This document shows, in pieces, positions 17,093 through 26,099 of a DNA stretch of 64,000 nt. The notes under the pieces were generated by a model that saw only the letters and a program-made list of their open reading frames with translations, ran no database searches and was not told where the DNA came from. Source of the DNA: Plantibacter sp. ME-Dv--P-122b (GTDB taxonomy: Bacteria; Actinomycetota; Actinomycetes; Actinomycetales; Microbacteriaceae); the NCBI RefSeq assembly GCF_030209375.1, contig NZ_JARVSC010000002.1:124001-188000 (forward strand). Reading direction: 5' to 3'. The first letter of the stretch is position 1. Each line of letters opens with the position of its first letter. A program made the translations under genes and the position numbers.

Positions 17093-17109
17093 TTCGGAAC
17101 TGTCCCGAA
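17093..17109. promoter_or_regulatory. island operator core, copy C
   Basis: TTCGGAACTGTCCCGAA, an inverted repeat (TTCGG-N7-CCGAA) and the most symmetric copy of the core found in four island promoters (17981-18009, 23002-23030, 23132-23160, 23643-23671). Here no -10 hexamer follows at the conserved distance, so it looks like an operator alone. It lies between the SipW cassette start and the end of the CmpB-like gene. Confidence 0.5.
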
Positions 17110-17170
17110 TCGTGTGACCGGACGGGCAGGCGGGCCGGATGCACGCCGCGTCTGACTGGTCGGGCTCGCG

Positions 17171-17887
17171 TCAGGTCGAGTGGTGCGGCGCGCTGTGCGG
17201 ACCGCGGGTGCTCGACTTCGCGTGCGGGAAGGCCTTCATGAGCCGCCCGAGCGTGGCTAGTCGGGCGAAGTCGGCCGTCGAGCGGCGCTCGTCGAACGTC
17301 TGCTCGAGCTGGATGACGCCCTGTTCGATGCGGTCGTGGGTCTGGGCGAGGGTTCCGGAGACCTCCGCGAGCACGGGGCGCAGCTTGGCGAGGGTGGTGA
17401 TCGAGTGTGCGGCATCGACCAGGAGGATGCCGATGAGGGCCCAGGCGATCGCGATCGCGACGTCGTGGGGGATCGCGACCAGGACGCGAACGAGCGGAGG
17501 GTGGATGACGTAGATGAGGAGGACCCCGAGCAGCCCGAACAGGAGGGAGTTCTCGAGGCAGATGCGGCCCTGGAGGTTGAGGCGTCGCGGACTGTAGTCC
17601 CAGAGCTGGATGTGGAACACCTTGTCGAGGACGAGGTGGGTGAAGAACTCGAGCGTGCTGGTGATGAGCACGCTCGCGATGAACACCAGGAACGGATTGC
17701 TGACGTACGGGTACACGAGCAGGATGAGCGCGATCGCCCCGAATCCGTAGATCGGAACGGTCGGCCCGGTGAGGAATCCGCGGTTCTGCAGGGACCGCTC
17801 CCGTACGAGGACGTACAGGACTTCGGCGATCCAGCCGAAGAAGGCGTAGACGGCGAGGAAGAGGAACAGCATGCTGATCGTGTACAT
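17171..17887 (-). CDS. CmpB-type integral membrane protein (putative ABC transporter permease family)
   Basis: About 238 residues with four to five membrane spans. The N-terminal part reads YAFFGWIAEVLYVLV, then NRGFLTGPTVPIYGFGA, the signature of the ABC_trans_CmpB family, and continues with TSTLEFFTH and WDYSPRRLNLQGRICLENS. The C-terminal third is soluble and helical with heptad-like character (KLRPVLAEVSGTLAQTHDRI), probably a cytoplasmic coiled coil. No substrate is known for the family. Start at ATG 17887; the frame is open to 17965 but without a ribosome-binding site. Driven by promoter A at 17981-18009 and divergent from the ctpE-like gene. Confidence 0.8.
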   Translation of the reverse strand: MYTISMLFLFLAVYAFFGWIAEVLYVLVRERSLQNRGFLTGPTVPIYGFGAIALILLVYPYVSNPFLVFIASVLITSTLEFFTHLVLDKVFHIQLWDYSPRRLNLQGRICLENSLLFGLLGVLLIYVIHPPLVRVLVAIPHDVAIAIAWALIGILLVDAAHSITTLAKLRPVLAEVSGTLAQTHDRIEQGVIQLEQTFDERRSTADFARLATLGRLMKAFPHAKSSTRGPHSAPHHST

Positions 17888-17980
17888 CGAGGGTGCGTCT
17901 TTCCGTTCCTGGCGGCGACAGCCGTCCGGCGACCATGGGCTCGTCGTGGCTGTGGTGGAGATCACGTCCGTGTGACGATC

Positions 17981-18009
17981 ACCCTAGTACGATTCGAGAC
18001 AAGTTCGAA
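17981..18009 (-). promoter_or_regulatory. island promoter/operator, copy A (CmpB-like gene)
   Basis: On the minus strand: TTCGAA at positions 1-6, TGTC at 9-12, CGAATCG at 14-20, and a -10 TAGGGT at 24-29 (plus 17981-17986). The 17-bp -35/-10 spacing and internal TGTC match copies B, D and F exactly. CAAG and CTCGAA half-sites flank it with a 14-bp spacer. It lies in the divergent gap and reaches within 19 bp of the ctpE-like start. Confidence 0.6.
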
Positions 18010-18027
18010 CAGCTTGAGGAGGCGCGC

Positions 18028-20409
18028 GTGCGCACAGGTCTGAGTGCCGGTGAGGTCGCAGAACGCGTCGCGGACGGGCGCACGAACGCGTTCACCCAGG
18101 AGACCAGCCGAAGCGTCTGGAGCATCGTCCGCTCGAACGTGCTCACGCTCTTCAACGGCATCATCCTCGCGTGTTTCCTCGTGCTGCTCGCGATCGGCCG
18201 GTGGCAGGACGCGCTCTTCGGATTCAGCGCGATCGCCAACGCCGTGATCGGCAGCGTCCAGGAGTTCCGGGCGAAGCGGTCGCTCGACCGTCTGGCATTG
18301 CTCAACTCGCCGAGTGCCCGCGTCCTCCGCGACGGCGTCGAAGCGGACATCGAGGTCGGCGATGTCGTAATGGACGATCTCATCGTGCTGCGGGCCGGTG
18401 ACCAGGTGCCCGCCGACGCCCTCATCGTGGAGACGCACGGCCTGCAGGTCGACGAGTCGATGCTGACCGGCGAGTCCGATGCCGTCGAGAAGACGGTCGA
18501 TGACCGCGTCCTGTCGGGCTCGACCGTCGTCGCGGGCGAGGGCTGCGCCGTCGTGGACCGCGTGGGCGCCGATTCGTTCGCGAACTCGCTCTCCACCGAA
18601 GCCAAGCGCTTCTCCCTCATCGCCTCCGAGCTCCGGTCGTCGATCAACCGGGTCCTGAAATGGGTGACATGGATCGTCGGGCCGGTCGCTCTCCTGGTCC
18701 TGAACGCGCAGATGAACGCGGTCGGCGGTTGGTCCGATGCGACGTCGAGCGGCGCATGGCGTGATGCGGCCACCGCCACGATCGCGGCCATCGTGGCGAT
18801 GGTGCCGCTCGGTCTCGTGCTCATGACGAGCATCTCCTTCGCCGCGGGGGCGGTCAAGCTCGCCCGCAAACAGGTGCTCGTGCAGGAACTGCCCGCGGTC
18901 GAGGCGCTCGCCCGGGTGGATCTCATCTGCCTCGACAAGACCGGCACACTCACGCAGGGTGACATCGTCTTCGACGCGGTCCACCCGATCCGCGAGCAGA
19001 TCGGCTGGGAACGGGTGCTCGGCTGGTACGGCGTGCAGAGCGATGCGAACGCCACGGCTCGGAGTCTCACCGCCCGGTTCACCGATCAGCCGGACACCGC
19101 TCCGACGGATCGGATCGGGTTCTCGTCCGCGCGCAAGTGGAGCGCCGTCGTGTTCCCCGACGGCATGTGGATCCTGGGTGGCCCCGAGATGGTCTTCCCG
19201 GCCAGGACGGACGACGACGCCGGCCACCGCGAGCTGGCCGCACAAGCGGAACGGCTCGCTGCGACCGGCCGCCGCACCCTCGTCCTGGCCCATGGAACGC
19301 CCACCACCGACGAGACCGTCCCGCACGACGCCGTGCCCGTCGCGCTCCTGACCTTCCGGGAGGACATCCGTCCGGACGCCGCCGAGACCCTCGCCTACTT
19401 CGCGGCGCAGGAGGTCGGCGTGCGGATCATCTCGGGCGACAACCCGCAGACGGTCGCGGCGATCGCCCGGGACGTCGGCCTCGATGCGCCGAGCGGCTTC
19501 GACGCGCGGAACCTCCCGGACGACGACGACGCGCTCCTCCGGGTGCTCGACGAGCACCTCGTGTTCGGTCGGGTCACGCCGGATCAGAAGCGACGGATCG
19601 TCGTCGCGCTGCGCAGGGCCGGTCATACGGTCGCGATGACGGGGGACGGGGTGAACGACGCCCTCGCGATCAAGGAGGCCGACATCGGCATCGCGATGAA
19701 CTCCGGCGCGGCTGCGACGAAGGCGGTCGCGCGACTCATCCTGCTCGACGGTCGGTTCTCCCACCTGCCGTCGGTCGTCGCGGAAGGACGGCAGGTCATC
19801 GCGAACATCGAGCGCGTCTCGATGCTGTTCCTCACCAAGACCGCGTACGCGACGTTCCTGGCGATCGTGTTCGGGATCCTCATGCTCCCGTTCCCGTTCC
19901 TCCCACGACAGTTGTCCATCTCGGACGGGCTCACCATCGGACTCCCTGCGTTCTTCCTCGCGCTCCTGCCCAATGCCCAGCGGTACATCCCCGGCTTCCT
20001 GCGCCGATCACTGAGCTTCGCCGTGCCCGCCGGCCTCGCGGTGACGCTCGGCATCACGGCTTATGCGCGCCTGGCCGCAGGGCTCGGCATCCCGGAAGCG
20101 GAGGTCCGGACCGGCTCGACGCTCATCCTGACGCTCATCGGCCTGTGGATCCTCGTCGTCCTCTCCCGCCCCGTGACCCGGTTCAAGGGAGCGGTCATCG
20201 GCGTGATGATGGTCGCCCTGGTCGTGGTCTACACCGTCCCGATCGCGCGGGACTTCCTGCAGTTCGTCGACGTGACGCTCCCGACCGCACTCCTCGTCCT
20301 CGGCACCTCGCTCGTCTCCATCGCGCTCATCGAGATCGTCCGGTTCGCCCACCGACGCATCGCGAGACGCGATGAGGAGCGCATGCTGGCTCAGCGGACG
20401 GCGAAGTAG
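18028..20409 (+). CDS. ctpE: CtpE-like P-type ATPase (probable calcium transporter)
   Basis: A 793-residue cation pump. Landmarks: actuator TGES at 147-150, phosphorylated Asp303 in CLDKTGTLTQ, nucleotide-binding region with KWSAV and hinge MTGDGVNDA at 537-545. There is no N-terminal metal-binding domain and no CPx motif. Sequence and length resemble mycobacterial CtpE (the EFRAKRSLDRLA, VQELPAVEALARVD and LTIGLPAFFLALLPN segments), a calcium importer in the plasma membrane; transported ion is inferred. GTG 18028 is preceded by GAGGAGG at 5-bp spacing; the frame upstream lacks a start with such a site. It overlaps the convergent 20391 gene by 19 bp and is divergent from the CmpB-like gene. 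Confidence 0.87.
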   Translation: MRTGLSAGEVAERVADGRTNAFTQETSRSVWSIVRSNVLTLFNGIILACFLVLLAIGRWQDALFGFSAIANAVIGSVQEFRAKRSLDRLALLNSPSARVLRDGVEADIEVGDVVMDDLIVLRAGDQVPADALIVETHGLQVDESMLTGESDAVEKTVDDRVLSGSTVVAGEGCAVVDRVGADSFANSLSTEAKRFSLIASELRSSINRVLKWVTWIVGPVALLVLNAQMNAVGGWSDATSSGAWRDAATATIAAIVAMVPLGLVLMTSISFAAGAVKLARKQVLVQELPAVEALARVDLICLDKTGTLTQGDIVFDAVHPIREQIGWERVLGWYGVQSDANATARSLTARFTDQPDTAPTDRIGFSSARKWSAVVFPDGMWILGGPEMVFPARTDDDAGHRELAAQAERLAATGRRTLVLAHGTPTTDETVPHDAVPVALLTFREDIRPDAAETLAYFAAQEVGVRIISGDNPQTVAAIARDVGLDAPSGFDARNLPDDDDALLRVLDEHLVFGRVTPDQKRRIVVALRRAGHTVAMTGDGVNDALAIKEADIGIAMNSGAAATKAVARLILLDGRFSHLPSVVAEGRQVIANIERVSMLFLTKTAYATFLAIVFGILMLPFPFLPRQLSISDGLTIGLPAFFLALLPNAQRYIPGFLRRSLSFAVPAGLAVTLGITAYARLAAGLGIPEAEVRTGSTLILTLIGLWILVVLSRPVTRFKGAVIGVMMVALVVVYTVPIARDFLQFVDVTLPTALLVLGTSLVSIALIEIVRFAHRRIARRDEERMLAQRTAK

Positions 20410-20801
20410 CGTCGGCCGCCACCGAGCCAGAGGGGGAGCAGCACCGCCGCCGCGACGATCGACTGGACCACCACGCCTGTCCAGTCACCGTCACCGGCGA
20501 CGACCAGGTCAGCCACGGCGAGCCCGAGGGCCAAGACCACGATTGCCGAGGCGCTCGCCCGCGACAGCGCACTCCCGCGGGCGACGCCGGAGGCGATGGC
20601 GATCATGAACAGGCCGAACAGCGCCATCCCGGCACCGGTCAGGGTGACGGCGAGGGTCAGACCGTCGGCCTGCACTTCGGTCGAATACCGCAGGAAGATC
20701 GAGACGACACCAAGGCCGATCTGTGCGATGCCGCCGAGATAGAGCAGGACGACGGCGCCGGTCACGGTGGCAGGTCTGCGTCGAGGGGTCTCGATCGTCA
20801 C
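20391..20801 (-). CDS. small four-span membrane protein, unknown function
   Basis: A 136-residue protein that is almost entirely membrane: four hydrophobic segments (about 14-36, 47-68, 76-96, 104-124) with short loops and a basic C-terminus (GGGRRYFAVR). It has a general resemblance to the small membrane proteins at 22586 and 23246 but no clear motif. GTG 20801 lies 4 bp after the phosphoesterase stop, so it is the last gene of that operon. Its 3' end overlaps the ctpE-like gene on the other strand. No function can be assigned. Confidence 0.65.
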   Translation of the reverse strand: MTIETPRRRPATVTGAVVLLYLGGIAQIGLGVVSIFLRYSTEVQADGLTLAVTLTGAGMALFGLFMIAIASGVARGSALSRASASAIVVLALGLAVADLVVAGDGDWTGVVVQSIVAAAVLLPLWLGGGRRYFAVR

Positions 20802-20805
20802 GGGG

Positions 20806-22572
20806 TCAGCCGGCCTTTCCGAACAGGCCCTTGCCGAACTTCGTGAGGTAGCGGTAAGCGTCCGCGAAGGTGGGGACGTCCTCTGGCATGACCTCACCGA
20901 ACTTCGCCAGGAGGAGCCCGAGCAGCGACTGCGCGGGCGGGCTCAACGGCTTGTCCTTGTGCGGGTGGTCGTCGGTGTACCGCTCGGCTTCGAGATTCGG
21001 CGGGATGTACTGCGGATGCGTGTGCGGCCACTCGCTCGGATGCCGGGGACGATCGAGGTTGATCGCGTTGAACAGGTTGTTCGCGCCGGCATCCCGCTTG
21101 GTCAGGGGCTTCAGACCGTGCAGTCTGGCGAGCGTGGCGATGACCGCCCCGTGGTGCATCTCGTCGTGGATGATCGTCCCGGCCTTCGTGTAGGCGGAGA
21201 TCGCGATCGCCGGCACGCGGACACCCAGGCGGTCGAACGCGAACCCCATCTCACCCGGGCCGCTGTCGTCCGGTGGCACGGCGACCGGAGGCGGGACGTG
21301 GTCGTAGGTTCCGCCGTGTTCGTCGAAGGTGATCAGCAGGAGGGTGTTCAGGGCGTTCGACCCCGTCGTACTCGAGCTGCGCCGGACCGCGTTGTACACA
21401 TCGCTGACGAGTGCCTCGCCGGCTCGGACATCGGAGAGGGCGCTGTCGTACACGGGCTGGCCGTTGATCAGGCTGGTGCGCAGGTTCCCGAACGGCGGAT
21501 GGAAGTCGTTGTGGTTGTAGGTCATGCGCGGCTCGATGAACGAATAGGCCGGAAGCTTCCCCTCCCTGGCGTCCTCGTAGAACTGCTCCATCGTCGCGAA
21601 GTGGTCGGTCTTCCAATGCTGCTCGAGCACCGGCGCATGGATCATGCCGGTGTACGAGATGAGCTGGAGCTTGTCGATGTAGATCTTCCACGGGATACCG
21701 GCGTCGTCGAGCCGGTTGAAGATCGTCGGTGCCGGAGGGGCGTCGAGCCACTTGTCGTAGTCGCCGTTCAGTCGGTTGGTGACGAAGCCGTGGGAGGTCG
21801 ACGCGTGGAAGAACGAGCGGTTGCAGAACGTCTGCGACGGGACGCCGGCGAACCAGTGGTCGTAGACGGCGAACTCCCGGGCGAGGGTCGACAGCACCGG
21901 CAGCATGTCGGGGGTGAAGCTCCCCATGACCTTGCCGAGGTTGGCCGGTACCTCGTCGGGCCGTCGCTTGAGGCGCAGGAAGTTCACGACGTAGTCGTTG
22001 ACGAAGCCCTGCATGTTGGGCGTGGCGCCGGCCGGTGGTGCGTTGAACGGGGCCTCCATCTGGTGCAGGAGGAGGTCGCTGTTGGTCGGAGGGTCGACGA
22101 CGTTGAAGAGCTGACTGTTGACGTGCGGGTACTCCTCGCCCGGGTCCGGGTCGGGTTGCCGCATGATCTCGTCGGTGGATCCTTCGTAGGGGTGCGCCGA
22201 GATGCGTCCGCCGAGCGGCGAGGGGTTGCTGTACTCGCCGAAATTCAGTCCCTCGAAGGTCTCGCCCTCCGGGAGGTCGTCCTTGTCGTACAGGTAGCCG
22301 AGGAGGTTGTCGAAGGAGCGGTTCTCGCCCATCAGGACGATGAGGTGGTCGAAGCCGGGCTCCGTGCGTGGGTCGAAGGCCACGAAGTCCGGGGTCGCTG
22401 CAGCCCGCTCGGCTTCGCTCACCGTCACTCCGATCCCGATGCCGGCGGGGGTGCCGACAGCCGCACCCGCAGCAGCCAGTCCCATGCCTTTGAGGAACGC
22501 TCTGCGCGAGCGGTCGACTGGCTGGTCGGCGTCGTCGTCCAGCGACTCGCGCGACGTCTCGTCAGTACTCAT
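20806..22572 (-). CDS. Tat-exported phosphoesterase (phospholipase C / acid phosphatase family)
   Basis: A 588-residue exported enzyme. The twin-arginine signal is DRSRRAFLKGMGLAAAGAA (about 20-40). The catalytic fold of the PF04185 phosphoesterase family follows: metal- and nucleophile-region ENRSFDN near residue 83, then FHASTSHGF, HNDFHPPFG and LITFDEHGGTYDHVPPP. It should hydrolyse phosphodiester or phosphomonoester bonds outside the cell, of phospholipids or other organic phosphates; substrate is not decidable. It lies 13 bp after the small membrane protein gene (22586) and 4 bp before another, and is probably transcribed from promoter B. No phosphate-response (Pho-box) array is recognised. 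Confidence 0.88.
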   Translation of the reverse strand: MSTDETSRESLDDDADQPVDRSRRAFLKGMGLAAAGAAVGTPAGIGIGVTVSEAERAAATPDFVAFDPRTEPGFDHLIVLMGENRSFDNLLGYLYDKDDLPEGETFEGLNFGEYSNPSPLGGRISAHPYEGSTDEIMRQPDPDPGEEYPHVNSQLFNVVDPPTNSDLLLHQMEAPFNAPPAGATPNMQGFVNDYVVNFLRLKRRPDEVPANLGKVMGSFTPDMLPVLSTLAREFAVYDHWFAGVPSQTFCNRSFFHASTSHGFVTNRLNGDYDKWLDAPPAPTIFNRLDDAGIPWKIYIDKLQLISYTGMIHAPVLEQHWKTDHFATMEQFYEDAREGKLPAYSFIEPRMTYNHNDFHPPFGNLRTSLINGQPVYDSALSDVRAGEALVSDVYNAVRRSSSTTGSNALNTLLLITFDEHGGTYDHVPPPVAVPPDDSGPGEMGFAFDRLGVRVPAIAISAYTKAGTIIHDEMHHGAVIATLARLHGLKPLTKRDAGANNLFNAINLDRPRHPSEWPHTHPQYIPPNLEAERYTDDHPHKDKPLSPPAQSLLGLLLAKFGEVMPEDVPTFADAYRYLTKFGKGLFGKAG

Positions 22573-22585
22573 GGCGCCTCCTCAT

Positions 22586-22960
22586 TCAGGATCGGAAGAA
22601 GTCTCCGGCGCGGCCGGTGTACAGCAGGATGATTCCGATCAGGGCGGTGGCCGCGGAGATGATCGGCCCGGCGATCGCGCCGGCGGGGTCGTCTGCAACC
22701 AGGACGATGGAAGCGACGATGGACGCCGACAGGGAAAGCGTCACCAGGATCCGAGCGATGTTGCTGCCGCTGAACAAGCCGACACTGACGCAGAAGATCA
22801 CGATGCCGACGCCGATGGCGATCCACGCCGAGAGGTCCGAGACGCCATCCGCCGACAGGACGCCTCGCAGGACCAGGATGCCGAGCAGGATGTGGAGGGC
22901 TGCTGAGATCCAGGTCAGCACGGCGATCAGGGTGACGCCGGCTGGTCGCTTCGCCATCAT
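22586..22960 (-). CDS. small membrane protein, paralogue of the 23246 gene
   Basis: About 124 residues: four membrane segments, starting MAKRPAGVTLIAVLTWI. Residues 5-80 align closely with the divergently transcribed neighbour (shared VLTWI/VLAWI, AWIAI and ARILVT), so the pair arose by duplication. No Pfam-type motif is recognised. Two adjacent ATGs (22960, 22957) follow GGAGG; an ATG at 22972 overlaps that site and is unlikely. First gene of a three-gene operon with the phosphoesterase, driven by promoter B. Confidence 0.72.
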   Translation of the reverse strand: MMAKRPAGVTLIAVLTWISAALHILLGILVLRGVLSADGVSDLSAWIAIGVGIVIFCVSVGLFSGSNIARILVTLSLSASIVASIVLVADDPAGAIAGPIISAATALIGIILLYTGRAGDFFRS

Positions 22961-23001
22961 CGTCGCCTCCACATGATCCGGGGGAACCCGGGCGTGGGAA
23001 C

Positions 23002-23030
23002 ACGATAGCGCGATACGAGACAGTTCCGAA
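23002..23030 (-). promoter_or_regulatory. island promoter/operator, copy B (phosphoesterase operon)
   Basis: Minus strand: TTCGGA (1-6), TGTC (9-12), TCGTATCG (13-20) and -10 TATCGT (24-29; plus 23002-23007). GTCAAG lies on its upstream side (plus 23034-23039 region). Leader of about 35 nt to the first ATG. Confidence 0.62.
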
Positions 23031-23118
23031 CAGTCTTGACATCGTCCGGTGACCGGAGATCACCGGATCGCTGGCGACCTCGTTCTGTCGAGGCGCTACA
23101 TGATCCGCCTTCCGCTGT

Positions 23119-23160
23119 GAAAATCAAGTCTTTCGGTTTTGTCTTGATTTTCGCTATCGT
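23119..23160 (+). promoter_or_regulatory. island promoter/operator, copy F, with AT-rich palindrome
   Basis: TTCGG begins at 23132, TGTC at 23140-23143 and the -10 TATCGT at 23155-23160, the same geometry as A, B and D. Superimposed on it is a perfect inverted repeat, GAAAATCAAG (23119-23128) and CTTGATTTTC (23143-23152), with a 14-bp spacer: the clearest form of the CAAG-N14-CTYGA half-sites seen in copy A. The AT-richness is striking against the surrounding sequence. It drives the 23246 gene. Confidence 0.65.
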
Positions 23161-23245
23161 CGAGCCCAGATCGGCCCCGAGTGGGGGTCGACCGATCCGG
23201 GGCGGCGTCTCGTTCGCTCGGAGAAGCAAACGAAGGAGCAAACCG

Positions 23246-23617
23246 ATGGCTGGTCAACGTCCTGGTGGAATCGTCTTCATCGCAGTCCTGGCCTGGATCG
23301 GTGCCGTTCTGCAAGTCCTGTCCGGCGTACTCGTCCTCACGGGCGTCCTCAACCCCGAAGGGGTGTCGACCGAGACGGCGTGGATCGCGATCGTGGTCGG
23401 GGTCATCTCGTTCCTCGTGGCCTTCGCGCTCTTCGGCGGCAGCCGGGTCGCACGGATCCTGGTGACCATCTCGTTCGTATTGTCGCTGCTCACGGCTGTC
23501 TTCTCGATCGTCGCGCACCCGACGAACTTCGTCGCTCCGGGCTTGGCCGCCCTGTTCGCGATCATCGCGCTGGTGCTGCTGTACAGCGAGAAGGCGAACG
23601 CGTACTTCACGCGCTGA
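23246..23617 (+). CDS. small membrane protein, paralogue of the 22586 gene
   Basis: A 123-residue protein with four hydrophobic segments and short loops, basic start (MAGQRPGGIVFIAVLAWIGA) and C-terminal YSEKANAYFTR. It is clearly related to the 22586 protein along its first 80 residues. ATG 23246 is preceded by GAAGGAG. Single gene with its own copy (F) of the island promoter. Function unknown; small paired membrane proteins could form a complex, but this is a guess. Confidence 0.75.
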   Translation: MAGQRPGGIVFIAVLAWIGAVLQVLSGVLVLTGVLNPEGVSTETAWIAIVVGVISFLVAFALFGGSRVARILVTISFVLSLLTAVFSIVAHPTNFVAPGLAALFAIIALVLLYSEKANAYFTR

Positions 23618-23642
23618 CAATCGGGACGGGCACGCCAGTCTC

Positions 23643-23671
23643 TTCGGAAGTGTCCTGAATTACGCTACGGT
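23643..23671 (+). promoter_or_regulatory. island promoter/operator, copy D
   Basis: TTCGGA (23643-23648), TGTC (23651-23654), CTGAAT and -10 TACGGT (23666-23671) repeat the geometry of A, B and F. The left CAAG half-site is not present. Drives the 23728-24248 gene pair. Confidence 0.6.
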
Positions 23672-23727: not shown

Positions 23728-24201
23728 ATGTCGAGAGAAGAGCACGCACGGGAAGGTGCCCAAGCGGTCATCCCGGACGACGAGATCCTCGACGTCGCGG
23801 TGGTGATGCCCCGCGGGTCGACCCTGTCCGGTGTCCTGGGTGCTGCCGCCGGTGTCGGGTTGAGCGGGAGCAACCAGACTGCATGGGGCGTTGCGGGCGG
23901 CATGATCGCGCAGCGGGCCAACAGCGCGTCGCACGGGAGTTACCCGTCGATCGTGCTCGCGGTCTCCGCGACCAAGGTCTATGTCCTCGGGCGCACATCG
24001 ACGGGCCTGGTGGGCGGTTGGAAGCATCTGCACCCCGTGGCACACATCGAGCGCTCCGACCTCAAGGTCACCCGTCGTCACCATGGCACCGTGCGCATCA
24101 TCGAGCTCCAGGACACGACCTCGGGCAGCAGCCTGGAGTTCGAAGCGCTCAACATCGGCGGCCTCGGGCTCAACGACCTCCTGAAAGAGCTCGGCGACTG
24201 A
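23728..24201 (+). CDS. conserved hypothetical protein, small beta-rich domain
   Basis: A 157-residue protein. After a charged start comes a Gly/Ala-rich hydrophobic stretch (about 33-65) that could be membrane-associated, and then a beta-rich domain (SIVLAVSATKVYVLG ... HGTVRIIELQDTT) with the strand pattern of a PH-like fold. No catalytic motif. ATG 23728 has GAGAGG some 11 bp upstream. It is followed 46 bp later by the CPBP protease gene and likely shares promoter D. I do not recognise the family. Confidence 0.65.
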   Translation: MSREEHAREGAQAVIPDDEILDVAVVMPRGSTLSGVLGAAAGVGLSGSNQTAWGVAGGMIAQRANSASHGSYPSIVLAVSATKVYVLGRTSTGLVGGWKHLHPVAHIERSDLKVTRRHHGTVRIIELQDTTSGSSLEFEALNIGGLGLNDLLKELGD

Positions 24202-24247: not shown

Positions 24248-25024
24248 ATGTCCTCAGCACTGAAGGTCCGGCCCCGCGTCTGGATCGGCTTGGCCATCTA
24301 CCTCGGGTACATCGCGGTGGTCTTCACCGTCCAGCTGGCCTCCGGCGTCCGGTACGACGAGCTCGGCGAGAGTGGAAGCAACCTGTTCTTCGGGGCCGGC
24401 TTGTCGCTGATCATCGCTGCTGTGCTTCTCGCCATCACGACGACGCTGCTCGGGTGGTGGCGCCCCGCAGTGTTCGATCGCCACCGGAGCGTGCGGTGGC
24501 CGATCATCGCTCCGATCCTCATGGTGGTCGCGCTGGTCTTCAATCTCATCTCGACGGACTGGGCCGCCTTTGACGGGGCGTTCCTCGCTGCGGCCCTCGT
24601 GATCATCCTCGTCGGGTTCACCGAGGAGATCACGACCCGCGGCCTCCTGCTGACGGGCCTGCGGAGTCGCCTCGGTGAGGGCTGGGTGTGGTTCGTCACG
24701 TCGGTCCTGTTCGCGGCGATGCACCTGTTGAATGCGACGGGCCAGGCGTTGGGAGCGACCCTGCAGCAGGTGGTGTTCGCGTTCGTCGCGGGCACGGTGT
24801 TCTACATCCTCCGCCGGGTGACGGGCACGCTCGTCTGGGCGATGGTGCTGCACGGACTTTGGGACTTCTCGACCTTCGCCCTCTCCCACGGGACACCCGG
24901 ACCGCTCGTCGGGATCGGTGCCGCCGTCAACCTGATCGCCGGTGTCTTCGGGCTGATCGCGGTCGCGTTCGTCATCCGCGGAGCAGACGAGCGACTCGCG
25001 GCCGGTGGAGGCGGTCGTCCATAG
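24248..25024 (+). CDS. CPBP-family intramembrane glutamic endopeptidase
   Basis: A 258-residue membrane protein with seven or eight spans. The three CPBP/Abi motifs are in order: FTEEITTRG (glutamates of motif 1), FAAMHLLN (histidine of motif 2) and HGLWDF (motif 3), all placed at the membrane face. Such proteases cleave within membranes; in bacteria they take part in peptide processing and in immunity to the producer's own bacteriocins. ATG 24248 has GAAGGAA upstream. It is probably co-transcribed with the 23728 gene. Substrate unknown. Confidence 0.87.
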   Translation: MSSALKVRPRVWIGLAIYLGYIAVVFTVQLASGVRYDELGESGSNLFFGAGLSLIIAAVLLAITTTLLGWWRPAVFDRHRSVRWPIIAPILMVVALVFNLISTDWAAFDGAFLAAALVIILVGFTEEITTRGLLLTGLRSRLGEGWVWFVTSVLFAAMHLLNATGQALGATLQQVVFAFVAGTVFYILRRVTGTLVWAMVLHGLWDFSTFALSHGTPGPLVGIGAAVNLIAGVFGLIAVAFVIRGADERLAAGGGGRP

Positions 25025-25232: not shown

Positions 25233-26099
25233 ATGCGAGACGATGAGCATGCCCGGGCGATCGAGCTGCTGGGACACTTCAACGACCAACTGACGCGAAC
25301 CGTCGACGGTGTCTTCGGTACGCGCTGGGCCGAGATCGAGGAGATCATCGCGCTCATCGCACTGGCACGCGATTCGGTCATCACGACACGTGCGCTGGCC
25401 GACATCAGCGGGCTCGGCCGCCGCGCGGTCTCCCGTCTCATTGCGCGTCTGAAGGATGACGGCGTGGTGACGACGCGGTCATCGGATCAGGACGGACGGG
25501 TTGTCGAGGTCGTCCTCACTGAACACGGGCAGGAGCAAGCCGAGGAGTTGCGGAGCCGAGGTCTTGCGCTGCTCCACGACAGTAGGGAGCTCGCGCAGGA
25601 ACTCGGCGCGATCCTGCAGACGACGATCATCGATGTGGATCCGTTCGGTGGAGACCCCCTCGTCCTGCTGCTCGACGCGAGCACAGTGGGTGCAAGGCTC
25701 GTGAGCTATATGCCCGCCGCCGCGACGCGGGGTCGGATGGCTGCCCGACAACGAGCCGCGCTCGTGTACATCGCCACCTCGGGTGAGGTGCGTCCGGGGG
25801 AGCTAGCCGGCCCCCTGGAGGTCTCCAACGCGGGATCGGCCTACCTGATCGACCAGCTGTGCGCGAAGGGCTTCATCCGCCGCCATCGCCACGAGGTCGT
25901 CGACGATCGACGTGCCGTCATCCTTCGAGCGACGCCCGACGGGCTGAACGCCGTGGCGGCGGTCGCGCACGGGGTCCGGGAAGAACGGGAGGCTCTTTCC
26001 CGCCTGTTCCTGCAGATCGCTGCGTGGCGCGACTCGGAGGAGCTGCCAGCCGTGCTGGAGGCGAGTGCACTGCCGGACGACCTCCGGGTGTCATCGTGA
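25233..26099 (+). CDS. regulator with two MarR-like winged-helix domains
   Basis: A 288-residue DNA-binding protein. The first winged helix is at about 35-105: TTRALADISGLGRRAVSRLIARLKDDGVVTTRSS, then the wing GRVVEVVLTEHG. The second is at about 170-235: RQRAALVYIATSGEVRPGELAGPL, GSAYLIDQLCAKGFIRR, then VVDDRRAVILRATPDG. Usual MarR proteins have one such domain and dimerise, so this tandem form may bind as a pseudo-dimer. ATG 25233 lies after GGAGAG. Last gene of the island and the only recognisable regulator in it, which makes it the natural candidate to act at the repeated island promoters; this is inference. Confidence 0.8.
   Translation: MRDDEHARAIELLGHFNDQLTRTVDGVFGTRWAEIEEIIALIALARDSVITTRALADISGLGRRAVSRLIARLKDDGVVTTRSSDQDGRVVEVVLTEHGQEQAEELRSRGLALLHDSRELAQELGAILQTTIIDVDPFGGDPLVLLLDASTVGARLVSYMPAAATRGRMAARQRAALVYIATSGEVRPGELAGPLEVSNAGSAYLIDQLCAKGFIRRHRHEVVDDRRAVILRATPDGLNAVAAVAHGVREEREALSRLFLQIAAWRDSEELPAVLEASALPDDLRVSS

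Follow-up and report, generated by a model that had tools for sequence, protein, structure and literature searches.

The promoters of a gene island in Plantibacter sp. ME-Dv--P-122b share a sequence element that, on balance, is probably an operator lying in the promoter spacer and read, most likely for repression, by a MarR-type regulator whose gene lies in that island; the pairing of regulator and site is predicted. The element itself is real, specific and recurring, and it is mostly tied to the gene for a two-lobe MarR protein. As a local regulon the system is of an ordinary kind; what sets it apart is the regulator and the geometry of its sites. The candidate target units are the CmpB-like gene, the operon of small protein 5 (sm5), the phosphoesterase and a further small protein (p3), the gene for small protein 6 (sm6), the P157–CPBP unit and perhaps, by position, the P-type ATPase gene. 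What emerges from sequence alone is a testable regulatory unit, comprising a site consensus, a likely regulator and the target genes of a module of uncharacterized proteins that is patchy in Microbacteriaceae. Positions are those of the window, the whole stretch of 64,000 nucleotides that was analyzed (Table 1).

Table 1. Elements and genes of the island, with their positions in the window.
Feature	Position	Strand	Remarks
Core copy lacking a −10	17093..17109	+	R1 E 0.063; minus strand has a hairpin and T-run after the CmpB-like gene
CmpB-like protein	17171..17965	-	PF06541, E 1.2e-47; coordinates of the longest frame, with the real start probably more internal
Element embedded in the CmpB-like gene promoter	17981..18009	-	Pattern match; R1 E 1.8e-5
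P-type ATPase	18028..20409	+	Start inferred; TIGR01494 above cut-off; the label CtpE is that of the sequence-only reading
Small protein (p3) behind the phosphoesterase	20391..20897	-	No family found; hydrophobic by eye
Phosphoesterase	20806..22572	-	PF04185; TAT-signal model just above cut-off
Small protein 5 (sm5)	22586..22972	-	Hydrophobic by eye; no Pfam family; clusters with 23248-23617
Element embedded in the small-protein/phosphoesterase operon promoter	23002..23030	-	Pattern match; R1 E 2.8e-7
Element embedded in the promoter of the second small protein gene	23132..23160	+	Pattern match; R1 E 5.8e-6; gene absent in G002
Small protein 6 (sm6)	23248..23617	+	Hydrophobic by eye; missing in G002
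Element embedded in the P157–CPBP promoter	23643..23671	+	Pattern match; R1 E 1.0e-5
P157 (157 aa)	23728..24201	+	Module core protein; no family; low-confidence PH/PTB-like model
CPBP/Rce1-like protease family protein	24248..25024	+	PF02517, E 3.2e-18
Two-lobe MarR-type regulator	25233..26099	+	Proposed cognate regulator

The sequence-only reading had described four promoters with a common pattern, and TTCG-N4-TGTC-N11-TANNNT is indeed present at all four places and on the strands given. These are the only four matches in the window, and each of 100 dinucleotide shuffles contained none. In the 3.92-Mb genome the matches are exactly the four island sites (reversed control, 0), and among seven Plantibacter genomes the bare pattern occurs only in this one (G000; four sites) and in G002 (three sites). 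Across the 149 other family genomes it was found at 42 places versus 28 for the reversed control; the bare pattern is thus too loose as a genome marker and not diagnostic across the family, and a profile model was used instead. The short core without the −10, TTCNNNNNTGTCYYGAA, is likewise not very specific, with 13 places in 16 genomes (nine in islands and four elsewhere, one of the latter being the C13 site described below and another lying in G003; reversed control, 6). The longer motif is specific.

The profile model, R1, covers 43 positions and was built from the sequences of 15 sites, partly from genomes on which it was then counted. At E ≤ 5 it gives six matches in its own genome, five inside the 6.6 kb of the described promoters and one elsewhere, with E values of 2.8e-7 to 1.8e-5 for the four promoters, 0.063 for 17093 and 0.065 for C13:22737. 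In 150 family genomes searched at E ≤ 0.05, with stricter filters that also dropped weak matches, R1 matched G000 only (0 of the 149 others). At the looser limit, the five Plantibacter genomes without P157 and the MarR gene gave one weak match (G006, E 0.216). A search allowing up to three mismatches to TTCNGNNNTGTCYYGAATCNNNNTANNGT returned six places in the own genome (the four promoters, 17093 and C13:22737) and none in those five Plantibacter genomes; across 16 genomes it gave further matches in G342, G260 and G107, and the reversed control gave two places. Hundreds of housekeeping promoters, which would have spoken against the claim, did not turn up in the profile and mismatch searches of the own and family genomes. 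The claim that all sites lie inside the island stands with one plausible exception in the genome, on C13, and the element is nearly private.

A fifth core copy had been placed at 17093. TTCGGAACTGTCYYGAA is matched there without mismatches, but no TANNNT lies at the right distance, where the sequence reads GACCGG, and a normal fifth promoter is ruled out by the missing −10. On the minus strand this place carries a 7-bp hairpin of ordinary folding energy (z 0.24) followed by GTTTTTT, 62 bases past the stop of the CmpB-like gene, and the core is absent at the corresponding place in the sister species G002. Because of the terminator-like hairpin, the missing −10 and the absence from the sister species, the copy is not clearly an operator, and its reading as operator or terminator-like is ambiguous.

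Nineteen sites, all found with patterns or matrices that favor TANNNT, were aligned. The L047 site, in which the spacing is one base shorter, the degenerate pairs of L040, L042 and L045, two G107 sites, and the −10-less cores at 17093 and L060:7734 were left out of this set. Constant among them are TGTC, the hexamer's TA and final T, and a C at motif position 3. TGTC is followed by YY in 18 of the 19 sites and reads TGTCGC in the remaining one, and the distance from the start of TGTC to TA is 15 bp. At the −35 position, the third base is C instead of G in 19/19 sites and the fifth base is G in 16/19. The consensus of the shared element is about ARNNNGTTCRGANNTGTCYYGAATC-N4-TANNGT, and the sites are supported as one promoter-embedded family. 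When 19 sources (397,686 bases) were scanned for the operator alone, 22 sites scored at least 22, a cut-off chosen after the gap down to 18.5 had been seen, and 15 of these 22 are training sites that had been found with −10-aware patterns. TANNNT accompanies 20 of the 22; counted from where TGTC begins, it follows at exactly 15 bp in 19 and at 14 bp in one, and we infer that it is a working −10.

An ECF sigma promoter has a constant GGAAC-like −35 and a −10 that is not TANNNT. In the aligned sites GGAAC is not constant and TA...T is constant (19/19), which does not fit this class of promoter. The partly symmetric core that had been described is visible by eye, as in a 25-bp dyad at 23002, but the symmetry is not significant in a dyad test on 15 of the 19 sites, where the best dyads are centered at motif positions 4 and 9 and their score was equaled in 758 of 5000 column shuffles; a palindrome is not supported on this result.

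No site in the window belongs to the CPBP gene itself, which lies behind P157, whose promoter carries one. The P-type ATPase is linked by position only: the upstream edge of the 17981 element lies 19 positions from the inferred start of this divergent gene (18028), and a candidate −10, TACGAT (by eye), lies next to it. For P157, no Pfam or NCBIfam match was found at the cut-offs used and no convincing sequence match in the PDB. The structure predicted for it is weak (pLDDT 64.9), residues 30–72 being of low confidence, and the PH/PTB-like matches have E values of 4.4e-3 or worse. In a clustering of 18 loci, with coarse gene calling that missed some copies, the commonest clusters were CPBP (16 loci), MarR (13), P157 (12) and the small proteins (7).

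The element recurs in front of P157 in several genera, namely Plantibacter, Herbiconiux, Microbacterium and others; in 11 of the 17 P157 copies read, the window copy included, it lies 84–92 bp before the P157 start. It also precedes sm5 in Herbiconiux (L061) and G342 (L060), and CPBP in L044. Relatives of the MarR protein were found in nine named loci. Among 398 family genomes, P157 is present in 11 (E ≤ 1e-10) and MarR in nine (E ≤ 1e-12), all nine among the 11. In the 16 genomes covered by both searches, MarR (E ≤ 1e-8) and an R1 match (E ≤ 0.01) occur together in 9/9 and are both absent in 7/7, an agreement that leans on genomes that also gave training sites; the seven are two genomes with P157 (G107 and G260) and five Plantibacter genomes with neither gene. 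Sixteen distinct close MarR loci, a count that leaves the distant loci L143–L145 aside, comprise 12 with the canonical element, three with a degenerate pair and one with none. In seven of the 16 the space separating MarR from a divergent neighbor holds the element, a layout described as common for MarR genes (PMC5487221). For the most part, with exceptions, the element appears to be co-inherited with the 25233 MarR gene.

The informative cases for this pairing are G107 and G260. G107, with no MarR match, has two P157 copies (L064 6883-7383 and 12555-13025), and both keep TANNNT in place upstream while the cores are altered, TGTC reading CGTC or TCTC, as expected if the core matters only with the regulator. 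Whether these sites are “decayed” is a matter of degree, since one is two mismatches from the degenerate pattern and the other has E 0.082 in the locus search. G260, which has P157 and no MarR, shows nothing element-like upstream of P157. Among the exceptions, Microbacterium RU33B (L043) has a MarR protein at 50% identity, no P157 match and no element within about 10 kb on each side, and G357 has a perfect element with a MarR match that covers residues 9–110 only. The distant MarR relatives from other families of the class (26–27% identity, L143–L145) and L146 gave no R1 match up to E 5. In three Microbacterium loci (L040 10818-10868, L042 10849-10899 and L045 10833-10883), two degenerate cores 26 bp apart lie between MarR and P157, with no TANNNT in place.

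The 25233 protein (288 aa) matches PF12802 and PF01047 above cut-off, with Pfam stretches at residues 39–89 and 175–229, and a MarR winged-helix domain is identified both by Pfam and by fold matches. Its structure model (pLDDT 86.8, pTM 0.82) predicts two winged-helix lobes in one chain, and BLASTP between the two halves gave no significant likeness (E 0.38). D-x-R, presumably a MarR-family feature, is invariant in both wings in 13/13 sequences. Among the PDB chains listed, only SarS of Staphylococcus aureus (1p4x) aligns over more than 150 residues. SarS also has two tandem winged-helix domains per chain, but the likeness is one of fold: it is 11–14% identical to the 25233 protein and comes from another phylum. 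With the local regulons of the MarR family (MarR, OhrR, MftR and CrtR) the island shares the winged-helix fold of each lobe, the D-x-R wing, a gene often divergent from its neighbor with the site between them, and a site that overlaps the −35/−10 region, here given by TANNNT 14–15 bp on in 20 of the 22 sites if the inferred −10 role holds. In contrast to these obligate homodimers with one wHTH per monomer, the 25233 protein carries two lobes in one chain, and the island site is mostly at a fixed distance from the −10 and not significantly symmetric, whereas the MarR operator is a 16–20 bp palindrome. Among the open-licence papers listed on tandem, fused or double MarR proteins, on Plantibacter promoters with MarR, and on Microbacteriaceae MarR with CPBP, none concerned this module.

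In the mechanism that we propose, a set of operators would lie in the spacers of housekeeping-type (TANNNT) promoters, and the 25233 protein would probably contact the asymmetric site with both lobes of its single chain. The bound regulator would cover the −35/−10 region of every target promoter and so silence the CmpB-like, small-protein/phosphoesterase and P157–CPBP units, with the P-type ATPase gene perhaps among them, until a signal releases it. Judged by family or by eye, several island products reside in the membrane or are exported, and a membrane-related signal is a guess made from this. Repression is taken as the default sign because most characterized MarR proteins are described as repressors, with activators generally binding further upstream (PMC5487221), and because MarR sites are described as usually overlapping the −10 or −35 (PMC7432914). 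It is further favored by the −10-less degenerate pairs in the three Microbacterium loci and by the −10 retained in MarR-less G107, and we consider repression about twice as likely as activation. Against the operator reading are the fixed spacing to the −10, which a repressor does not need, and the lack of significance of the expected MarR dyad.

Activation stays in play because the −10 is at a strict distance and the −35 departs from consensus. A possible but rather doubtful alternative is that the two-lobe MarR protein activates by a sigma adaptation like that of PafBC, one lobe binding the spacer TGTC and the other helping the housekeeping sigma factor to accept a poor −35. The PafBC/RecA-NDp promoters of mycobacteria are alike in having TGTC in the spacer, a weak −35, TANNNT and a regulator with two HTH domains; PafBC sites are given as TGTCGG-N10-TA-N3-T with AG or AC variants (PMC8151990), one base longer than the island site, and one HTH of PafBC is described as reading the −26 motif and the other as contacting sigma domain 4 (PMC11804915). 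TANNNT at 14–15 bp in 20 of 22 sites (15 of them training sites) and the −35 bases, off consensus at the third position in every aligned site and mostly G at the fifth, would fit such an activator. The degenerate pairs without TANNNT, the −10-less cores at 17093 and L060:7734, and the −10 that the P157 promoters of MarR-less G107 still carry argue against it, as does the preponderance of repressors among characterized MarR proteins, whose activators usually bind further upstream (PMC5487221). A PafBC site proper is ruled out by sequence (TGTCYY in 18/19 sites, as opposed to GG, AG or AC after TGTC) and by spacing (15 bp from the start of TGTC to TA, as opposed to 16); the island regulator is moreover of the MarR type, and no WYL match was found among the 10 region proteins scanned. 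The more particular claim that the protein is a single-chain sigma adaptor, with one winged helix on the spacer TGTC and the other on the housekeeping sigma factor, turning a private regulon on, is unlikely; if it held, sigma adaptation would have arisen in MarR proteins separately from its origin in WYL proteins. The pairing of an uncommon two-lobe MarR protein with a site mostly at a fixed distance from the −10 makes it possible to ask directly whether such a protein represses or helps a sigma factor.

It is quite improbable that another regulator or an alternative sigma factor reads the element and that the 25233 MarR gene is a mere neighbor in the block. Such a reading could draw on the MarR locus without an element (RU33B), on G357 with its partial MarR match (9–110) and on a LacI-type cluster in three of the 18 loci, but none of the cluster's members lies near the window island. 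In the survey of recurrent regulators, which covered genes near the islands of the 18 loci, 15 clusters occur in at least three loci; of the seven nameless ones, each scanned by one representative, the LacI-type cluster was the sole regulator by Pfam and one had no match. The agreement of MarR and element (9/9 versus 0/7) also stands against another regulator, and the constant spacer TGTC and TA...T (19/19), with GGAAC not constant, against an ECF-type sigma factor.

The block that runs from the CmpB-like gene to MarR is also present in the sister species G002, in three aligned pieces at 93, 88 and 83% identity. Around the 17981 element, 40/42 bases are kept versus 49/67 for 17908-17974, and around the 23002 element 41/43 versus 47/71 for 23041-23111. 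The elements are thus better conserved than some neighboring DNA; other short non-coding stretches are also kept, namely the sm5 leader (20/22), 18017-18027 (9/11) and the P157–CPBP gap (43/46). G002 lacks sm6 and has a single promoter (L008 12691-12719), whose upstream side matches the 23132 copy at 29/40 positions versus 11/40 for the 23643 copy, and whose downstream side matches the 23643 copy at 22/40 versus 11/40 for the 23132 copy. It resembles a hybrid of these two copies, and recombination in the repeated promoter may have added or removed sm6. A chance origin, or the recent copying of a single promoter inside the island, would suit this hybrid and the near-chance frequency of the bare pattern elsewhere in the family, but it is very improbable given the empty shuffles, the element upstream of different genes in several genera, the unlike flanks of the 23132 and 23643 copies (12/40 upstream, 9/40 downstream) and the R1 results in the own genome and 150 family genomes.

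A further point against the operator reading is that the region upstream of the window MarR gene has no high-scoring site in the operator-only scan and is poorly conserved between the window and G002 (103/208). The MarR gene of L047 has a seemingly good promoter, TTGACC-N17-GATAAT (by eye), unlike the presumed targets. The C13 stretch, compared with the other six Plantibacter genomes, matched none of G004; in the other five about its first 60 bases were matched, plus 29- and 37-base pieces inside the gene. The sixth copy that it carries (C13:22737-22765; L091 5038-5066) has a correctly spaced TATTCT, and about 175 bp separate its end from a downstream PF06826 (Asp-Al_Ex) transporter gene, which is followed by an aminotransferase-family gene.
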